From: Polyangium mundeleinium
Lineage (GTDB): Bacteria; Myxococcota_A; Polyangia; Polyangiales; Polyangiaceae
Assembly: GCF_028369105.1 (NCBI RefSeq)
Contig: NZ_JAQNDO010000001.1
Span: 8,650,501 to 8,714,500, forward strand
DNA length: 64,000 bases
Direction of reading: 5' to 3'
Both the position numbers and the translations under genes were made by a program. This document shows positions 2,735 to 13,597 of the stretch, in pieces. Numbering within the stretch: the stretch's first letter is position 1; each line of letters opens with the position of its first letter. The notes below the pieces were generated by a model, which did not search any database, had not been told where the DNA came from, and was given only the letters and a program-made list of their open reading frames with translations.

Positions 2735-3097
2735 CGACCGCTTCGACCGTCGCGCTCGGCGAGCTTCGTTCGAGGAGGTGGCGCGGAGGAGGGCGGCGAG
2801 CATGTCGGCCTGCTCCTGGGTGGCGAAGTCTTTCGTGCCGCGCGCCATGAGCTGCATGCTCTTCGCGTGGAGCTCGGCGATGCGCCGCAGGCTCCCGGCG
2901 TGGGCAACGTCGTCCTTCGAGAAGGCGACGTCGAGGCGGCGGAGCGTGGCCAGCGCCGAGGCGTAGGCGATGACGTCACCGTGGCGGGACTTGGCGATGC
3001 GCTCGATGTCGTCGTCGTAGACGCACGGCACCTCGGCGGAGCACTTAGGGCAAATAACCAGCAGCGAGAGTTGCCCCAGGGGCACACGCTTACGCAT
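2735..3097 (-). pseudogene. Chimeric zinc-ribbon ORF fused to a transposase tail
   Basis: On the minus strand an ATG at 3097 opens a frame whose first dozen residues (MRKRVPLGQLSL) are those of the C-terminus of an IS91-type transposase, identical to the copy near 7.6 kb. It then continues as VICPKCSAEVPCVYDDD and a helical segment rich in Lys, Arg and Ala. CxxC plus a further Cys suggests half a zinc ribbon. The frame has no stop near 2.7 kb and runs on antisense through the NmrA gene, so the natural 3' end is lost; protein-like composition ends around 2735. I read it as a remnant made by a mobile-element rearrangement, though a short functional product cannot be excluded. Confidence 0.4.
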
Positions 3098-3145
3098 CGG
3101 CGGTCCACGCGCCGAGAGCCCCGCGCGGGCCAACCCTTCGCGAAT
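3041..3145. repeat. Copy 1 of the 21-bp + 85-bp transposase-end duplication
   Basis: Positions 3041-3061 equal 7292-7312 and positions 3061-3145 equal 7555-7639 exactly. Here the two blocks abut with a one-base overlap; in the second locus they are 242 bp apart. The 85-bp block encodes the last residues of the IS91-type transposase on the minus strand. It marks a deleted or recombined copy of that element's end. Confidence 0.85.
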
Positions 3146-3530
3146 TCCTCCCGCTCGCGCGCTGGGCCCTCGATCCGTGGCTCCCCATCGTCGTCGCGCG
3201 CCCGAACCCGCACCGCCTCCTCTTCCCGCTCTCCTCGGGCGCGCGACGCCAAGCGAAGAAGGCCCCCGCCGAGTGGCCGGGCACCCCCGGCAGGAATCGG
3301 ACCTGCTTCTAGCAGCCCCCTCGAACCACACGGAGATCAGCAGCAACACAGCGGTGATCCCGGCCGTTCTGCGAGATCGAGGGGGCGAGCTGGAGATGAC
3401 CGCGACGAGACGTTCCGAGACCCTCCGGTGCGTGGGTTGGGGCAACAGTAGGGCAACGCTGGCGAGCGGACTTGGCAGGGTGGTTGGAGGGACGCGGTTC
3501 CAGCGTTGACGGTCGGATTTTACGATCGGT
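3146..3530. other. Intergenic stretch, no supported gene
   Basis: About 385 bases between the transposase-end fragment and the repeat-protein gene. All open frames here are Arg/Pro/Ser-rich and look like GC-bias artefacts. On the minus strand around 3283-3315 there is a short stretch resembling a tRNA T-arm (GCAGG, 7-nt loop, CCTGC), without a convincing tRNA body. Confidence 0.5.
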
Positions 3531-4349
3531 TCACTTCGCGCAAGCCCACGTGGCCGTCTTGTTGTTCTTGACGCTCAGCGACCAGTCCCCGCTGGCGGTG
3601 GAGGGAGCCGCGATCAAGGCGCCGTCGTTCCAGTCGTTCTGGTTGAGCGCGCCCGTGATCCCGGTGAGCGCGCAGCCCTTGATGCCCGTGCCCGAGGTGA
3701 TCGTGACGGTGTTCGTTGCAGAGGCTGCGGCGGACACAGAGCCCGAGGTGCACACCGTTCCTTGCGGGAAGTCCACGCACGTGCCGAAAACCCGCGCGTG
3801 CGAGCCATCGTAGGGGTCAGTAGGGAGATTGGCCTCGACGTACCATCCCGTTGTCGGGTGGGTTGCGTCCGTCGATGTCTTCTTGACCACGCGCGCGAAG
3901 TTGCTGCTGCTGCTCCACGCGCCGGTAATGCCCCAGATGCCGGAGAGGTAGCATTGCCGCAGGTTGTTCGGGTCGAGGTCGGTAATCTTGACGGGGGCGG
4001 CGACGCCGCTATCGCTCTTCCACGTGGCGTCGTCGCGAACGTTGCTGGGGAAGCAAGTGGCTTTGGCATTCACAGGATTGTTATCCCAGACCCTCTGGTT
4101 GTGCTGGTCCGTGTAGGCACCACCGTGCGCATACAGCCAAGTCCCGGTCAACGGATACTTGGCACCCACCCAGGCCATCGATTCCACGTCGTTGGACCAT
4201 TCTCCGCCGCGATTGAGGTTCCCTGCGACACCGCTGAGGACGCAGGTCTGGGGAGACGTCGAGGAGATGTCAATCCCGTCGTAGTCCGTCGTGGTCCCCC
4301 ACGCCCAGTAGCCCCATCCGGACAGCGCAGCCGCGCACCCAGAAGCCAC
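3531..4349 (-). CDS. Probable exported protein with three CxLSG two-cysteine repeats
   Basis: A 272-residue product from a GTG start at 4349. It is built of three units that begin C-x-L-(S/T)-G-(V/I)-x-G and end with a second Cys: Cys36-Cys99, Cys133-Cys191 and Cys226-Cys270. It finishes in CAK, two residues after the last Cys. The same units, and the preceding W-x-G-T-T...YDG stretch, occur in the extracellular part of the kinase encoded upstream on the same strand. Paired cysteines and an Asn/Thr/Trp-rich composition fit an exported, disulfide-bonded protein. No good signal peptide precedes this start; the next frame upstream has MKITMTVPMFRHL (ATG about 4415), so a single-base frameshift may hide the true N-terminus. 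I do not recognise the repeat as a named domain. Confidence 0.75.
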   Translation of the reverse strand: MASGCAAALSGWGYWAWGTTTDYDGIDISSTSPQTCVLSGVAGNLNRGGEWSNDVESMAWVGAKYPLTGTWLYAHGGAYTDQHNQRVWDNNPVNAKATCFPSNVRDDATWKSDSGVAAPVKITDLDPNNLRQCYLSGIWGITGAWSSSSNFARVVKKTSTDATHPTTGWYVEANLPTDPYDGSHARVFGTCVDFPQGTVCTSGSVSAAASATNTVTITSGTGIKGCALTGITGALNQNDWNDGALIAAPSTASGDWSLSVKNNKTATWACAK

Positions 4350-4720
4350 GCTGAAGTCATGCGGGTGAGGTGACGGAACATCGGAACAGTCATCGTGATC
4401 TTCATTCGTTTTCTCTCGCTTGCTTCACACGCATTCGGCGGCGCGTGACCTCTGAGGTAGAGCCACGTTCGCTCGCGTCGTGACCGTCGAAATCCTACTG
4501 GGACAAAAAAGGGCGGCGAGGGCGGGGATTGGGCCGCGTGGATCCTGTGCATGGTGCTGTCTGACAACGCCGGGCTCGACGTTTCGTTGAGCACGGGGAG
4601 CCACGCCTCGTCGTCGAGATCGTAGCGTGAGCCGCCGCCGCCCCGGGGCGGAGGTGCGCCACGGGCCCTCGATATCCGTCCTGTCGAGTGCGAACGAGCA
4701 GCACCCTCGCGGGTTGTCAT
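4350..4720 (-). CDS. Possible small ORF coupled to the sigma factor stop codon
   Basis: An ATG at 4720 overlaps the sigma factor's TGA (ATGA), a classic translational-coupling arrangement. The frame encodes a basic, Pro/Gly-rich head, an acidic segment (YDLDDEAWLPVLNETSSPAL), another basic region and then MKITMTVPMFRHLTRMTS. It stays open out of frame into the repeat-protein gene, as far as 4148. Either it is a short independent gene, perhaps a regulator of the sigma factor, or it is the N-terminal part of the repeat protein separated by a frameshift near 4350-4360. No known domain is visible. Confidence 0.35.
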
Positions 4721-5364
4721 TCCGACACGAGCTTCTCAGCGCGAGCCATCTCGTGCAGCCGCTCCTTGAGCCGTTCGAAGCGCTTGCGAAGCGCCGCGGC
4801 GCTGACCCCCCCCATCACGCTCGCCACGTCGGTCCAAGCGAGGTCCCGATCCACGCGGAGGATGAGCAGCATTTGGTCCTCCGGGTCGAGTCGTTCACGC
4901 AAGAGAACGAAGGCCGACTTGGCTTCGCTCTTCAAATGGGGCAGCGTCTCGGAGCTCAACTGCGCCGCGAGCTGCAGGATTTCCGCAATGTCCGTCATGG
5001 GCGTTCGACGCAGGTGGCGCCGCTCCCTCTTTTGCGTTCGATCGAATCGCCCAAGTTGATGTCGAGCGAGCGTGTAGACCCACGTTCTAAGCGAACAGCG
5101 CCACTCGAAGACAGTGATGCCCGCCCATAGGTCGAAGCTGAAGTCACCAAAGATGTCCGCTGCATCGTGCTCCGAGCTGACGATCGCGAGTAGGAAGCCG
5201 AAGATTTCTGGCCCATACGCTTGCAAAGTGCCTGTCACCACCTGCCTGAACTCACCGGCACGAAATAGGCTATGCATCTGGGCCTCGAATTCGCTCCTTT
5301 CTGCCGAATTTTCAGGCAACTTACATCGGACAAGTGTATCGGGCACGTTTCCAGCTCCTCCCAA
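4717..5364 (-). CDS. ECF-like sigma factor paired with a Ser/Thr kinase
   Basis: A 215-residue sigma-70-family protein. Region 2 includes LQAYGPEIFGFLLAIV, the segment SEHDAADIFGDFSFDLW in place of the usual DAEDLVQE-type core-binding helix, and FEWRCSLRTWVYTLARHQLGRF, the promoter-melting helix. Region 4 is at the C-terminus (RLDPEDQMLLILRVDRDLAWTDVA...ALRKRFERLKERL), a helix-turn-helix that would bind the -35 element. Its ATG lies 3 bp after the kinase stop codon, so the two are co-transcribed. No classical anti-sigma gene is adjacent; kinase control of the sigma factor is therefore the likely mode, as known for some STK-linked ECF groups. Confidence 0.85.
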   Translation of the reverse strand: MGGAGNVPDTLVRCKLPENSAERSEFEAQMHSLFRAGEFRQVVTGTLQAYGPEIFGFLLAIVSSEHDAADIFGDFSFDLWAGITVFEWRCSLRTWVYTLARHQLGRFDRTQKRERRHLRRTPMTDIAEILQLAAQLSSETLPHLKSEAKSAFVLLRERLDPEDQMLLILRVDRDLAWTDVASVMGGVSAAALRKRFERLKERLHEMARAEKLVSE

Positions 5365-5367
5365 GGT

Positions 5368-7023
5368 TTACTTGATGCAAACGTACGACAAGCGCTTTCC
5401 CTTCGTGGCATACACTTGCCACGCCTTCGTCTGCTTATCGTAGCGGATGCCCGCTCCATCGTACAACTCGTTCGTGCGAAACCTGCCGCCGACACCGGCG
5501 AGAAAACATACTGTTGCGTCGGGGGGCAGGTCCTGCTTCGGTACGCCGTTCTTCAATGGTGCCGCTTGACCCTCTAGGTTTCCGGACGTGAATTCACGAC
5601 CGATGTCCATGCACGCTGCGTAGGCGCGGAGCCCAAGCTTCCCCGAGCTCGCGCGGCTCCCCCCGAGCCACCAATTTTGCCCATCGTGCCAAACACGTAT
5701 GTCATCCAATTCGGATTCCAAACCGTCAACGCCGATGATTTCGGTGAGGAAGCATTGACGACGCGGCGTCACGGCCGCGAGCAGGGTCGGATGCGAATCG
5801 TTCGACGCGCTGTCCCAGCTCTTGACACCGGTATATCCGGCTGCGCTATCGATGCACGTCGATTCGGCGTGCACAATCGCTCCGCCGGGAGAGTCCACTT
5901 CCATCCGCCACCGCATGGTCTGTGGATCCTCGTAAAGACCCGCGCGCGCGGGCCTCGTCCAGTCTGCTCCCTCGAGGTCGCCGAAGAGCCCCGTAAGGAA
6001 GCACGTAAGATCGGCCGTCGCACCCAAGTCCGCATCCGACCCATCGTAGGTGGTGCCGGTCCACGTATGGGGCTCGACGACCAGCGCTTTGGGGCGCAAC
6101 GCGACGAGCCCGAGGGATGATGCCATTGCGATGGTGATGCCTAGCGCCCAAAAACGCCGCGAACTCGACCGGCGCGCGAGTTCGAGCTGCGTAGCCAGGG
6201 CCTCCATCGATTCCCAGCGACGGCTTGGGTCTTCTTCGAACCCGCGAGCGATGATTCGACGGATCCGGCTGGGGACGCGCGGAATGCCGGTAAGCGCTTC
6301 ACGAAGGGCGACACAATACGAGTATTGGTCGGATCGCGCATCCGTCATGCCTGTGCGCTGCTCCGGTGATGCGTACGCCGGTGTACCTGCAGGAACGTGG
6401 CTTTGACCGATGCCAAGCTGCTCCTCCTCGCTGGCCATCTGTGGGGAGATAACCCGAGCAAGCCCGAAATCTGCCACCCTCACTCGCGCGTCTTTGCCGA
6501 TGAGCACATTGTCCGGCTTGAAATCGTGGTGCACGAGGCCTGCCATGTGGGCCGCCGCAAGCCCCCGTGCTGCTTGCAAGAATTTATCGAGGATTTCCTG
6601 CCAGCTGCGGGGTCGTTCGTTCAACCAGCTCCGGAGCGTTCCCGCGTCCACGTACTCCATTGCAAGGAAGACCTGCCCTGCATGCGTTCCAACTTCGTAG
6701 ATGGTGACGACGTTGGGGTGAGTGCAGCGTGCCAGGACCCTTGCCTCACGGAGCATGAACTTTTCCGCACGCGCGTCGGCGAAACGTAGAAGCTTGAGCG
6801 CAACCGGCCGATCGAGCCGAATATCGCGCGCGAGGAAGACGATTCCCATTCCACCTCGACCCAGAGTTCGCTCGACTCGGAATGCATCATCGACGATGGC
6901 GCCCACTTCCAAGGAGACGGGGGGCTGCATCGCCGGCGCCCGAGCCACTTTGCGAACGAAGCTGTCTACAGACTCGCTTCTCGTCGCTGGATCCGCATCT
7001 CTCGACGCGTTGTTGTTCGTCAT
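5368..7023 (-). CDS. Transmembrane Ser/Thr protein kinase with CxLTG-repeat ectodomain
   Basis: 551 residues from ATG 7023 (an upstream ATG at 7077 adds a Pro-rich leader). The cytoplasmic Hanks-type kinase domain has the GRGGMG loop (about 55-60), VALK lysine (77), catalytic loop HHDFKPDN (165-172, with His replacing the usual Arg of HRD), DFG (185-187) and SPE (219-221). The C-lobe looks about 30 residues short: after SDQYSYCVALREALTG it jumps to VPSRIRRIIARGF. One membrane segment lies at about 291-309. The exterior part carries three repeats with Cys341-390, 424-471 and 506-549, ending in VCIK, matching the exported repeat protein downstream. It is probably a sensor kinase acting on the adjoining sigma factor. 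Confidence 0.88.
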   Translation of the reverse strand: MTNNNASRDADPATRSESVDSFVRKVARAPAMQPPVSLEVGAIVDDAFRVERTLGRGGMGIVFLARDIRLDRPVALKLLRFADARAEKFMLREARVLARCTHPNVVTIYEVGTHAGQVFLAMEYVDAGTLRSWLNERPRSWQEILDKFLQAARGLAAAHMAGLVHHDFKPDNVLIGKDARVRVADFGLARVISPQMASEEEQLGIGQSHVPAGTPAYASPEQRTGMTDARSDQYSYCVALREALTGIPRVPSRIRRIIARGFEEDPSRRWESMEALATQLELARRSSSRRFWALGITIAMASSLGLVALRPKALVVEPHTWTGTTYDGSDADLGATADLTCFLTGLFGDLEGADWTRPARAGLYEDPQTMRWRMEVDSPGGAIVHAESTCIDSAAGYTGVKSWDSASNDSHPTLLAAVTPRRQCFLTEIIGVDGLESELDDIRVWHDGQNWWLGGSRASSGKLGLRAYAACMDIGREFTSGNLEGQAAPLKNGVPKQDLPPDATVCFLAGVGGRFRTNELYDGAGIRYDKQTKAWQVYATKGKRLSYVCIK

Positions 7024-7554
7024 CGCAATGCTAGTATATCCGGCCGTCGGGTGCGGTGGAAGAGGGGGAACGCGCACACCGCTTCAAGCTCCCCGAACAA
7101 GCGCCCCGCAACCGCTGAGACCTTCTATGTCGTTCCAGACAGAGGTGGTGCCCCTCGACCGGACGCGGCCCGTGCGATGCCCCACCCATCGCCCCGTTCG
7201 TTGCCCCGCCCCTGCTGCGGCTCGCCGGGGCCCCTCGGGGGGATCCGGCAGGGCTCCCGGCGTCGACTTCAGCTCGGGCCGCACGAGAAGTGCACTTAGG
7301 GCAAATAACCAGCCCATTTCACCCTCGAGCAGGAACCGTCGCCCCGCCGCCCCCCGCCGCGGCCGTATCCCCGACTACGGCATGACGCCACCACACGTGG
7401 GCCTCGCGCGGAAAGTCGAGCTCGTCATCGAATTCTTTTGCACTGCGGGCACACGTACGCATCGGCGCCGGCAAACAGCAGCAAACAGCGAGCGCGAGAC
7501 GTCCACCAAAGGCGGCGCCTCAGGGCTGCTCTCGCCGGTGCGCTTTCGGGAATG
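7024..7554. other. Intergenic stretch with IS-end-like 21-mer
   Basis: 530 bases between the kinase start and the transposase remnant. The only clear landmark is the 21-bp sequence at 7292-7312 that is repeated at 3041-3061. Frames here are low-complexity Arg/Pro/Gly and I support no gene. The kinase promoter must lie in the left part, but I see no convincing -35/-10 pair. Confidence 0.45.
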
Positions 7555-7639
7555 GCAGCGAGAGTTGCCCCAGGGGCACACGCTTACGCATCGGCGGTCC
7601 ACGCGCCGAGAGCCCCGCGCGGGCCAACCCTTCGCGAAT
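7292..7639. repeat. Copy 2 of the 21-bp and 85-bp duplicated blocks
   Basis: Contains the 21-mer at 7292-7312 and the 85-mer at 7555-7639, both exact matches to the locus at 3041-3145, separated here by 242 bp. The 85-mer is the 3' end of the transposase reading frame on the minus strand. The 21-mer lies beyond that 3' end and may mark the end of the original element. Confidence 0.8.
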
Positions 7640-8327
7640 CGCATCCGGTGTAAGCGCAACGTTTCGCCACCGCATCGTGCTCGCACACTTCGGACACGCT
7701 GTGACATCGATGGCGAACACATGTCGCAAAAGCCACGCCCACGGCTTGCGTCGCGCCTTTCCTCCGGTGGCGTCGTCCCATCGAAAAGCTCACCGAATAG
7801 AGACAACTGCAATGGCGCTCGGGGTGGCGCGACCTTCGGCGCTGCCGATGACCGTGCCGACGAAACGACTTCTCTTCGCAATGCTGCATTCGGCGCGAGC
7901 ACGCCGTGAAACCGCACCCTATGAAAACGCGGCGGCGGCGCCATCGCGCATGCCCGAGCGAGAAAGTCGTAGGGATCCAGCACGACGCACCTCGTCCCGT
8001 CACGCCACACTTTTTGGAACTCGTACCGGACGTTCTCGCCGACAACCCCGAGACGCTCCGTCGCAATCGGCGGCCTCACCAGGTACCGGCACCCCCGCTC
8101 CACGCGTTTCCGATCCCGACCATCGATCGCCGCTCCCGCGTGGACGTTGAAACCCATACCCCATCCAGCACGAGCGTATGCGCATGCACGTTCAGCCGCA
8201 GCGCCGAGTCGAATCGCTGGATGACTGTCACGGCTCCGGGAAACGCATCTTCGACGCTCGAAAGGCCAAACATACGCCTCGCGCGCCATCGATACGATCT
8301 CAATAGCTCCTCCACGAACGCGCCCAT
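7520..8327 (-). pseudogene. Degenerate IS91-family (IS801/IS1294-like) transposase
   Basis: Three minus-strand frames together read as one IS91-type Y2 transposase. First comes EELLRSYRWRARRMFGL, VTVIQRFDSALRLNVHAHTL and VLDGVWV (from 8327). Then RPPIATERL, RYEFQKVWRDGT, VVLDPYDFLARACAMAPPPR and FHRVRFHGVLAPNAALR (about 7800-8070). Last is RHVFAIDVTACPKCASTMRW...IREGLARAGL to the stop at 7520. Frame changes between the blocks and loss of the N-terminal zinc finger and first catalytic region make it inactive. IS91 elements move by rolling-circle transposition. Confidence 0.75.
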
Positions 8328-8404
8328 GTTCTGCCTCCCTCGGAACGGTACACAAACAGATCCCTGTTGCCGCCTCCGCTCCCGCTTCCACCCTACGACG
8401 TCAC

Positions 8405-9030
8405 ATGTTCACCCTTGCCGGTAGCAGCAATGGGCGCGTAGGCTGTACGATCGTGACGAACACAGTCGCGTGCATACGATGCGGGGCGATCGTGCCGCAG
8501 AGCGAGACGGAGTTTACGAGCCGCGGCGACCTGGTCTGCGGGAAGTGCGCGATGTTCCTGGAGTGCACGCCCATGTCGAGCGGGCGCGGGCCGCTGCATA
8601 CGAGGAGGCCAGCAGGGAAAACAACGGGGACAAAGCCCGGGACGCGGACAACGTCGCCGCGCGGGACCATGCAACCTTCGCCGCCATCGAGGCGGCGGGA
8701 CCGGCTCGGGCGCCGGCGACCACGGTGTGCTTCCGTTGCGGGACGGCGGTCCCTACCGCGAGGATGACCTACGGGCTCAATGGGCAACTCATGTGTGTCG
8801 CATGCTCCGCCACCTACGACGATCGGGCAGAACGCCGGAAGATCGAGGGGAGCACGGCGGCGGGATTCTTGCTCGGTTTTTTCCTGTCAGTGTTCGGGCT
8901 GATGATCGTGAAATTCGTCCGAAAGAAGCCGGCCGAGCAAGATGGGGTCTGGATCGGGCTCATCGCGGGCTCGATCGTCATTTACATACCCCTGTTCTTT
9001 TTCTTGACGGCGAAGCTGGCGTTGAAGTGA
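8405..9030 (+). pseudogene. Double zinc-ribbon membrane protein, frameshifted
   Basis: Two frames together encode one sensible protein. From 8405 (or GTG about 8454) the first frame gives zinc ribbon 1 (CIRCGAIVPQ...LVCGKC). The frame that ends at 9030 gives HVERARAAAYEEAS, then zinc ribbon 2 (CFRCGTAVPT...LMCVAC) and two membrane segments near the C-terminus (GFLLGFFLSVFGLMIVKFV and WIGLIAGSIVIYIPLFFFL). The ribbons are clearly homologous duplicates, so the change of frame around 8548-8575 is a real indel or a sequencing error. The likely product is a small inner-membrane protein with an N-terminal cytoplasmic zinc-binding part. Function unknown. Confidence 0.6.
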
Positions 9031-9076
9031 CACGCCGCTCGAGAGCGCGTGAGCTTCCACGAGAAGCAGTACACAA

Positions 9077-9436
9077 ACCTCCTCTCGGAGGTCCCTCGAC
9101 CTCCGGCAGGAGGTCCCTCCACCTCCGACAAGCGTTCCTCCACCGTCCGTAGGCGCCCCTCCATCTCCGGCGGGAGGCCGACCATCTCCGCCAGGAGCTC
9201 GCCTGCCTCTCCCCAAACATCGCCCCCTTCCGCCACGAGGCCCCCCACCTCCGCCTGGGATGGCTCCAACCTCCGCCAGGAGGTGCCCCATCTCCCCCCG
9301 GAGCTCGTTCCTCTCCGACAGGACGTCCCCCGCCTCCGCCACGACGTCGCCCACCTCCGGCACGAGCTCCCGGATCCCCGGCAGGACCTCCCCCGCCTCC
9401 GCCAGGAGCTCACCCACCCCCGCCCGCAGGTCGCCG
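9077..9436. repeat. Tandem array of seventeen 21/22-bp units
   Basis: Seventeen head-to-tail units with approximate consensus ACCTCCGCCAGGAGCTCCCC plus one C; fourteen are 21 bp and three (units 1, 2 and 9) are 22 bp. The core CCTCC-n-GGAGG is an imperfect palindrome. Read on either strand the array gives heptads: minus strand GELLAEA, GEVLPGI, RELVPEV, GDVVAEA; plus strand LRQEVPH, LRHDVAH. The 22-bp units break any single frame. It fills the gap between two plus-strand genes. Confidence 0.85.
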
Positions 9437-9538
9437 CTCCCCCGCCTGTCCCGCCTCACCACCTTTTTGTAGCCAAGGTCCACCTACGCAAATGGTTCCG
9501 ACGTACGCATCCGGGACACACAAACCCAGGAGGAAATC

Positions 9539-10087: not shown

Positions 10088-13342
<3,255 letters not shown>

Positions 13343-13597
13343 GTTTGTCTTTCGGGAACCCCTTACGCCGCACTTAGCCGAGATCCACGGCTTCGTCAAG
13401 CCACGGGCGTTCGAAATGGTTTGGCGACCTGCAACCCCAGGTTTGGCCCCATGGAACCGGAGGCGGCGGAGGTTTTACCAGACGGACCGGTTGGGCCAGT
13501 CGTGGAGCGCGGCGAACGACGGCGACGTGGGCGTGCGGAGGCGCGACCCGAGCTTGTGAAAGGCTCGTTTCCCTGGTACGCACGAAAGCAGGTCCGG

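Follow-up and report, generated by a model that had tools for sequence, protein, structure and literature searches.

What does it mean when the outer part of a membrane kinase and a protein encoded close to it are built from the same repeat? The question is raised by a locus of the soil myxobacterium Polyangium mundeleinium that lies in a stretch of 64,000 nucleotides (RefSeq assembly GCF_028369105.1, contig NZ_JAQNDO010000001.1, positions 8,650,501 to 8,714,500), here referred to as the window. At positions 3531 to 7023 three genes are found on the minus strand, coding for a Ser/Thr kinase, an extracytoplasmic function (ECF) sigma factor and a repeat protein, as an earlier note on this sequence had described. 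The reading that we favour, with a probability of about 0.5, is a kinase-gated ECF sigma circuit in which the sensor domain of the kinase is at the same time the domain of most of the candidate target products. We favour it because a profile made from lipoproteins only finds the kinase exteriors, the kinase-sigma pair is adjacent in both species (P. mundeleinium and Polyangium fumosum), and a promoter-like island accompanies the pair. The window genome measures 13.25 Mb, and its genus group includes Polyangium sp. 6x1 (G093) and P. fumosum (G086).

The kinase (551 aa, 5368..7023, minus strand; Pkinase PF00069, E 1.3e-35) has its kinase domain inside the cell, one transmembrane segment (hydrophobic peak, at about residues 291-309) and a C-terminal exterior (5371..6093) of three units with a cysteine pair each (Cys 341-390, 424-471 and 506-549, numbered from the ATG at 7023). 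The body of the repeat protein (3531..4349, minus strand) is likewise composed of three units (Cys 36-99, 133-191 and 226-270, numbered from the GTG at 4349). These cysteine positions, all named in the earlier note, are borne out, as are the unit start C-x-L-[STA]-G-x-x-G in five of the six units (kinase unit 2, with CFLTEIIG, is the deviant) and the end of both proteins two residues past the last cysteine. The proposed W-x-G-T-T...YDG lead-in, on the other hand, can be traced approximately in the two proteins but is not kept across our 15-row alignment.

That the repeat is common to both proteins, as had been claimed, is best seen with a profile of 13 lipoprotein rows from which the kinases were left out to avoid circularity. 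Among 11,184 six-frame open reading frames (ORFs) it reached the kinase exterior of the window at E 6.1e-33 and that of P. fumosum at 1.1e-30. With the exported protein as a single query, the kinase exterior of its own genome was found at 29% identity (E 1.9e-4), and the kinase exterior in turn picked up repeat proteins that stand alone in other genera (G009 at 2.9e-15, G019 at 4.8e-15). The units also resemble each other: profiles of units 1, 2 and 3 placed 20, 25 and 13 of 30 other units, respectively, above about 99% of 600 shuffles, and the second units of both window proteins fell below that line with the unit-3 profile. The cysteine pairs of units 2 and 3 are invariant in the 15 rows, while two rows (L048 and L050) lack both cysteines of unit 1. 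Since these two were lost together, the pattern suggests pairing within the unit, i.e. probably one disulfide inside each unit.

Of 108 genomes from the bacterial family, 17 were found to have the repeat, at 25 places (the split gene of G039 being counted twice), two of which are kinases. Across the phylum it was found in 7 of 377 sampled genomes, one of them outside the family, as a lower bound. Note that the searches scored some first-look candidates per genome (6 in the 377-genome phylum search, up to 22 in the family repeat search and 8 in the island search described below), so absences are to be read as lower-bound statements. All 12 intact non-kinase rows (a paralog of the window copy at locus L006 and 11 others) have an N-terminal hydrophobic segment ending in a cysteine, as judged by eye; even though several lipoboxes are not the textbook LAGC, the intact stand-alone repeat proteins look like lipoproteins. 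The repeat is a domain without a name in Pfam, NCBIfam or the PDB sequence families, in keeping with the view that it was unrecognised: Pfam gave no match for the 15 rows at E 0.1 and, for six rows at E 10, a single one below its own cut-off (Prok-RING_2, 0.14); NCBIfam gave 0.27 at best, with no model matched, and the PDB sequences 1.1 and 0.37 at best. A literature search, judged from titles and abstract openings, gave no description naming this repeat or regulon.

Is the order of the three genes itself a sign of a common function? P. fumosum keeps kinase and sigma factor adjacent (78% identity in the exterior, 88% in the kinase domain, 86% in the sigma factor). Its third gene, however, is a different one, coding for a protein of 752 aa whose N-terminus is signal-like and which contains a domain of the beta-lactamase family (E 2.3e-10); on this ground a conserved three-gene cluster is rejected. 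Moreover, the third gene of the window, which had been taken for an intact exported-protein gene, is, to judge from its sequence, a recent, 5'-broken duplicate. Its intact paralog (L006:7994-8938, 89% identical) lies at 11.53 Mb, 2.9 Mb from the window. In comparison to it, 67 bp are absent at about position 4333, by which the lipobox is removed and the frame shifted. The leftover 5' part (4334..4405, minus strand) starts at ATG 4405, and the signal peptide encoded there is not continued in frame by the body; the GTG at 4349 falls inside the former signal peptide. The window copy therefore has no signal peptide with a lipobox cysteine in frame with the mature protein. In the paralog and in the copy of Polyangium sp. 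6x1 (L004/L045), by comparison, the signal peptide ends in ALSLGC and is joined to the repeats by a linker of some 20 residues. The duplicated stretch spans about 4518 to 3305. No constraint is visible on the window copy, given 6 synonymous and 33 nonsynonymous differences from the paralog over 189 and 603 sites, respectively. At the apparent ortholog place of L006, P. fumosum has a short lipoprotein fragment only (L005/L056 233-313), which would make this lipoprotein family one that is prone to decay.

Among the loci found with the repeat profile, genome G039 is the only one with a repeat gene beside a kinase and a related sigma factor (L049, 2781-7202). That repeat gene is oriented divergently to the kinase-sigma pair and is read in two frames (a frameshift or a sequencing error). 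The exterior of the G039 kinase gave no repeat match and is TPR-like to the eye. No kinase exterior with the repeat was found in G093 or G077.

The pairing of kinase and sigma factor stands on broader ground. The sigma gene (4717..5346, minus strand) has an ortholog in P. fumosum and scores above the cut-offs of both the ECF superfamily model (TIGR02937 sigma70-ECF, 48.5 bits, cut-off 42.9) and the region 2 family (Sigma70_r2 PF04542, 28.7 bits, cut-off 24), which places it among the ECF sigma factors; a Pfam scan listed no region-4 match. The 3 bp spacing to the kinase that had been reported holds for the first TTG (5364) only, and the GTG at 5346, behind GGAGGAG, is the likelier start. A kinase stands where an anti-sigma gene is usual, in line with the remark in the earlier note that kinases can replace anti-sigma factors in some ECF groups. 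At other places with a related sigma factor a kinase match lies within 400 bp in 33 out of 54 and within 1 kb in 37 out of 54; these matches are single tblastn stretches, several loci are cut by contig ends, and 6 of 60 other places were left out. Three sigma paralogs of the window genome are among the 33. The kinase-sigma link is of an established kind, and the repeat exterior was found in one such pair in two species.

A better-founded link between the pair and the lipoproteins than adjacency is a shared promoter-like element. Window positions 4438..4538 (minus strand; blocks TTTTTTGT-(C)CCAG, TCGACGGTCAC, CGTGGCTCTACC and GTCACGCGCCG) can be aligned, with 88 of 101 bases identical, to a segment of the P. 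fumosum genome that lies 106-207 bp downstream of its sigma gene. The alignment scores 72 against at most 13 in shuffles, whereas the DNA between the sigma stop codon and the island scores 10.0 against a shuffle mean of 9.98. The island is found upstream of four exported-protein genes: the repeat gene of the window, its intact paralog at L006, the P. fumosum gene beside kinase and sigma factor (L041) and a distant repeat lipoprotein gene of P. fumosum (L042). Three of the four are repeat genes, one of them broken. All four islands share the blocks CTTTTTTGT, CCCAG, TCGACGGTCAC, CGTGGCTCTACC and GTCACGCGCCG without a single difference, and the distance to the start is 76, 77, 113 or 187 nt, always in sense.

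With 8 candidates scored per genome, the window genome and P. fumosum each yielded two near-full-length copies (89 to 116 bases out of 116). None was found in the other 106 genomes, 11 of which gave one short match each (E 1.2e-4 to 0.0097). When six genus genomes were searched with a motif, these four islands came up again, together with one hit in G093 that has a different spacing and does not lie at the lipoprotein gene there; the reversed control gave 0 hits, as did 100 shuffled versions of the window. A looser motif gave ten places in three of the six genomes, namely the four islands and six sites in which the spacers differ (reversed control 1). No island was found before the repeat lipoproteins of G093 (79% identical) and G077. 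From its position, orientation, copy number and co-occurrence, we regard the island as a candidate target promoter of the kinase-linked sigma factor.

Just upstream of the intact paralog there is another possible reader of the island, an ECF-like sigma gene (L006:6414-7412) whose product is much extended at the C-terminus and has family scores below cut-off. It has orthologs of at least 81% identity in five of six genus genomes, and because three of these genomes have no island, the island tracks the kinase-linked sigma factor and the second gene is disfavoured. Further pieces of this ECF-like gene occur in the window genome at 6.39 Mb, and a small gene upstream of the paralog (L006, about 7512-7830) appears by eye to code for a helix-turn-helix regulator. 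A search for sigma-70 promoters in window positions 3400-7300 found none.

In the circuit that we favour, the kinase exterior would bind something at the cell surface, upon which kinase activity would switch on the sigma factor, probably via phosphorylation. The sigma factor would then read the island and raise the repeat lipoproteins, and in P. fumosum also the exported protein of the beta-lactamase family. The ligand of the repeat lipoproteins would most likely be of the same kind, so that they serve both as the working arm and as a feedback that takes ligand away from the kinase. As the window genome has a damaged copy next to the pair, its working product would be the intact lipoprotein at L006. 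The functional link between kinase exterior and repeat lipoprotein, suspected at the outset, survives on the evidence of the island, and a direct repeat-to-repeat contact may at most be inferred.

The kinase at the head of this circuit has the motifs GRGGMG, VALK, HHDFKPDN, DFG and SPEQ. In the exterior dN is 0.113 and in the kinase domain 0.057, and the ratio of nonsynonymous to synonymous rates (dN/dS) is 0.41 and 0.14, respectively; the sigma factor has 0.36 and two lipoprotein pairs have 0.56 and 0.87 (all rates are crude, as they come from NG86 under strong codon bias). The low ratio in the kinase domain suggests that it works. Judged by eye against the Pkinase profile, the C-lobe of the kinase seems to be reduced near helix G (residues 232-262) in the one species as in the other.

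Several points weigh against the circuit. The pair is carried by only two related genomes, and the islands of the window and of L006 are recent duplicates, leaving at most three independent islands; one of the four island targets has no repeat and one is broken. No island was found upstream of the kinase itself, on which autoregulation of the kinase through it was also rejected, and upstream of the repeat gene L047 the nearest look-alikes are motif-like sequences with 4 mismatches. The kinase, even though its catalytic Lys, Asp, Asn and DFG are present, has HHD in place of HRD, and the match to Pkinase extends no further than position 198 of the 263 in the profile. The sigma region 2.2 motif is DAAD in both species and not a phosphorylatable, STTA-like one. 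Pairwise similarity is weak in as much as the kinase exterior, used as a single query, does not reach the lipoproteins of its own genome at E 0.01. Finally, in a tree of 21 repeat domains (E 1e-15 or better, about 200 or more model positions; the partial or split L049, L053, second of L050 and L161 left out), the two kinase exteriors group together with a support of 100/100, and the lipoproteins of their genus stand outside this branch. Because the exterior misses its genome's own repeat proteins and branches separately, no tight co-evolution is visible, and the tree suggests that the kinase exteriors are not a recent sister of the adjoining lipoprotein.

Much of this would also follow if the repeat were a common surface module outside any circuit, a duplicated lipoprotein gene having landed beside kinase and sigma factor by recombination or IS91-type movement, with adjacency and similarity being independent. 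The order of the genes is not kept, the third gene is a recent broken duplicate without sign of constraint, and the DNA bears traces of such movement. A remnant of an IS91-type transposon (7292..8400, minus strand; Y2_Tnp PF04986, E 1.7e-16 in ORF 7375-8391) lies directly upstream of the kinase, with pieces 93-98% similar elsewhere in the genus, and an 85-bp sequence within it (7555-7639) recurs identically at 3061..3145 (plus strand), so that the two copies bracket the whole three-gene block. Among 21 other stand-alone repeat loci, a kinase match lies within several kb at 8 and a match to a related sigma factor at 1; as 3-7 kinase neighbours are estimated by chance (from kinase matches and candidates), the enrichment is weak at most. 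What this explanation leaves aside is the placing of the island, which is found downstream of the sigma gene in either species and, in each of the two genomes, precedes repeat genes at different sites as well; we consider a common module without a circuit possible but rather doubtful. The island, for its part, might belong to another regulator, act as an RNA leader or be a spread repeat. With a length of about 75-100 bp it is longer than a simple ECF promoter, and it holds two GTCACG direct repeats. An Rfam scan gave no match at E 1, and on this we rejected an RNA leader; near-full-length copies number only four, each of which precedes an exported-protein gene in the sense orientation, and the other ECF-like gene nearby does not track them. 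An island of such a different nature thus appears unlikely.

A bolder idea is homotypic recognition: what the kinase exterior binds would be the repeat lipoprotein itself, displayed either by the same cell or by a neighbour. Both partners have the same domain, and the kinase domain changes more slowly than the exterior and the lipoproteins do, which may be the case if these are recognition surfaces; against this, the rates are crude and the exterior does not cluster with the lipoproteins of its own genome, so we hold the idea to be quite improbable. In its full form, one undescribed three-unit disulfide domain would be both the receptor ectodomain of a kinase-ECF system and the body of the lipoproteins that it controls, the two meeting directly in a self- or kin-sensing circuit. 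Although we think it just as hard to believe, cells would, if it were true, measure their own or their neighbour's repeat lipoprotein.

A few neighbouring features remain to be mentioned. The same 85 bp, inside longer pieces of the IS91 element, are found paired 3-6 kb apart at 7.80 Mb in the window genome and in G093:C25 and G056:C47. Window positions 9122-9442 contain imperfect 21-bp tandem repeats, with 11 registered copies, that form a seven-residue repeat in a putative ORF (8887-9483, minus strand). A UvrD helicase with a PHP-like N-terminal part is encoded at 10088-13399; its counterpart in G077 (L044) is 89% identical and has a repeat lipoprotein about 2.6 kb away, in the opposite relative orientation.

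As for the fold of the repeat, two AlphaFold models have low confidence (predicted local distance difference test scores, pLDDT, of 42.4 and 48.0), probably because they are based on an alignment of three rows. For both models, one of the kinase exterior and one of a lipoprotein that is 29% identical to it, the Cys/His-rich domain of PCSK9 heads the VIA list, with a best Z of 4.6 for these low-confidence models; unrelated beta proteins come next at nearly equal Z, and a VIA Z under 8 may reflect merely a common arrangement. The modules of this PCSK9 domain are M1 453-529, M2 530-603 and M3 604-692, and are resistin-like (PMC9816786). The kinase model is overlaid in register with the three of them (residues 1-77 on 456-531, 1-155 on 456-602 and 1-218 on 456-673). 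Foldseek ranks the PCSK9 domain first for the kinase model (E 0.087) and 10th for the lipoprotein model. The period of about 75-80 residues is similar, but the PCSK9 modules have three cysteine pairs each, as opposed to one per unit in the repeat. We regard a PCSK9-like fold as a lead only, and an initial guess of a beta-trefoil (three times four strands) was dropped.

Why should a single pair be of interest? Kinases run into the hundreds in these bacteria, and for one Sorangium 508 have been reported (PMC3696898). In the window genome at least 151 kinase-domain matches are listed (150 of 357 candidates scored), and the related sigma type has up to five members per genome. Most kinases and sigma factors of this type in these bacteria lack known inputs or targets. 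Here, for one kinase-sigma pair, a concrete sensor domain can be named, along with a candidate promoter of few copies and candidate targets of the same domain, so that input and output can be tested together.

It is instructive to set the pair beside known systems. In their exteriors, PASTA kinases (PknB/Stk1 type) are similar at first sight, with a kinase inside, one transmembrane segment and repeated units outside. The exterior here is nevertheless not PASTA: neither a scan of the full-length kinase at E 1 nor one of its exterior at E 10 listed a PASTA family (weak matches are dropped by the HMMER filters), and NF033483 matches residues 41-246, i.e. the kinase domain only, with 190.7 bits against a cut-off of 450. 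On the side of the sigma factor, EcfP of Vibrio parahaemolyticus is phosphorylated by the neighbouring kinase PknT (PMC8999054), and PknS of Xanthomonas citri directly phosphorylates EcfK (PMC13147305). The locus resembles these two systems and group ECF43, as far as these sources describe them, in that an ECF sigma factor lies beside a transmembrane Ser/Thr kinase and no anti-sigma gene is recognised adjacent; the kinase gene adjoins the sigma gene in the window and in P. fumosum alike. The switch residue differs, since EcfP has STTA where the sigma factor here has DAAD, and the fourth position is acidic in all 56 rows of the related sigma family. Phosphorylation elsewhere on the sigma factor, by analogy to the linker of EcfK, is possible. 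Groups ECF59, 61, 62, 217 and 283 combine a neighbouring kinase with an acidic, DAED-like motif; the representatives listed are planctomycetes and Nocardioides (PMC8999054). The pairing of kinase and ECF sigma factor is thus already known, and what distinguishes the Polyangium pair from the ECF43-type systems, apart from the motif of the sigma factor, is its sensor, the new repeat domain.

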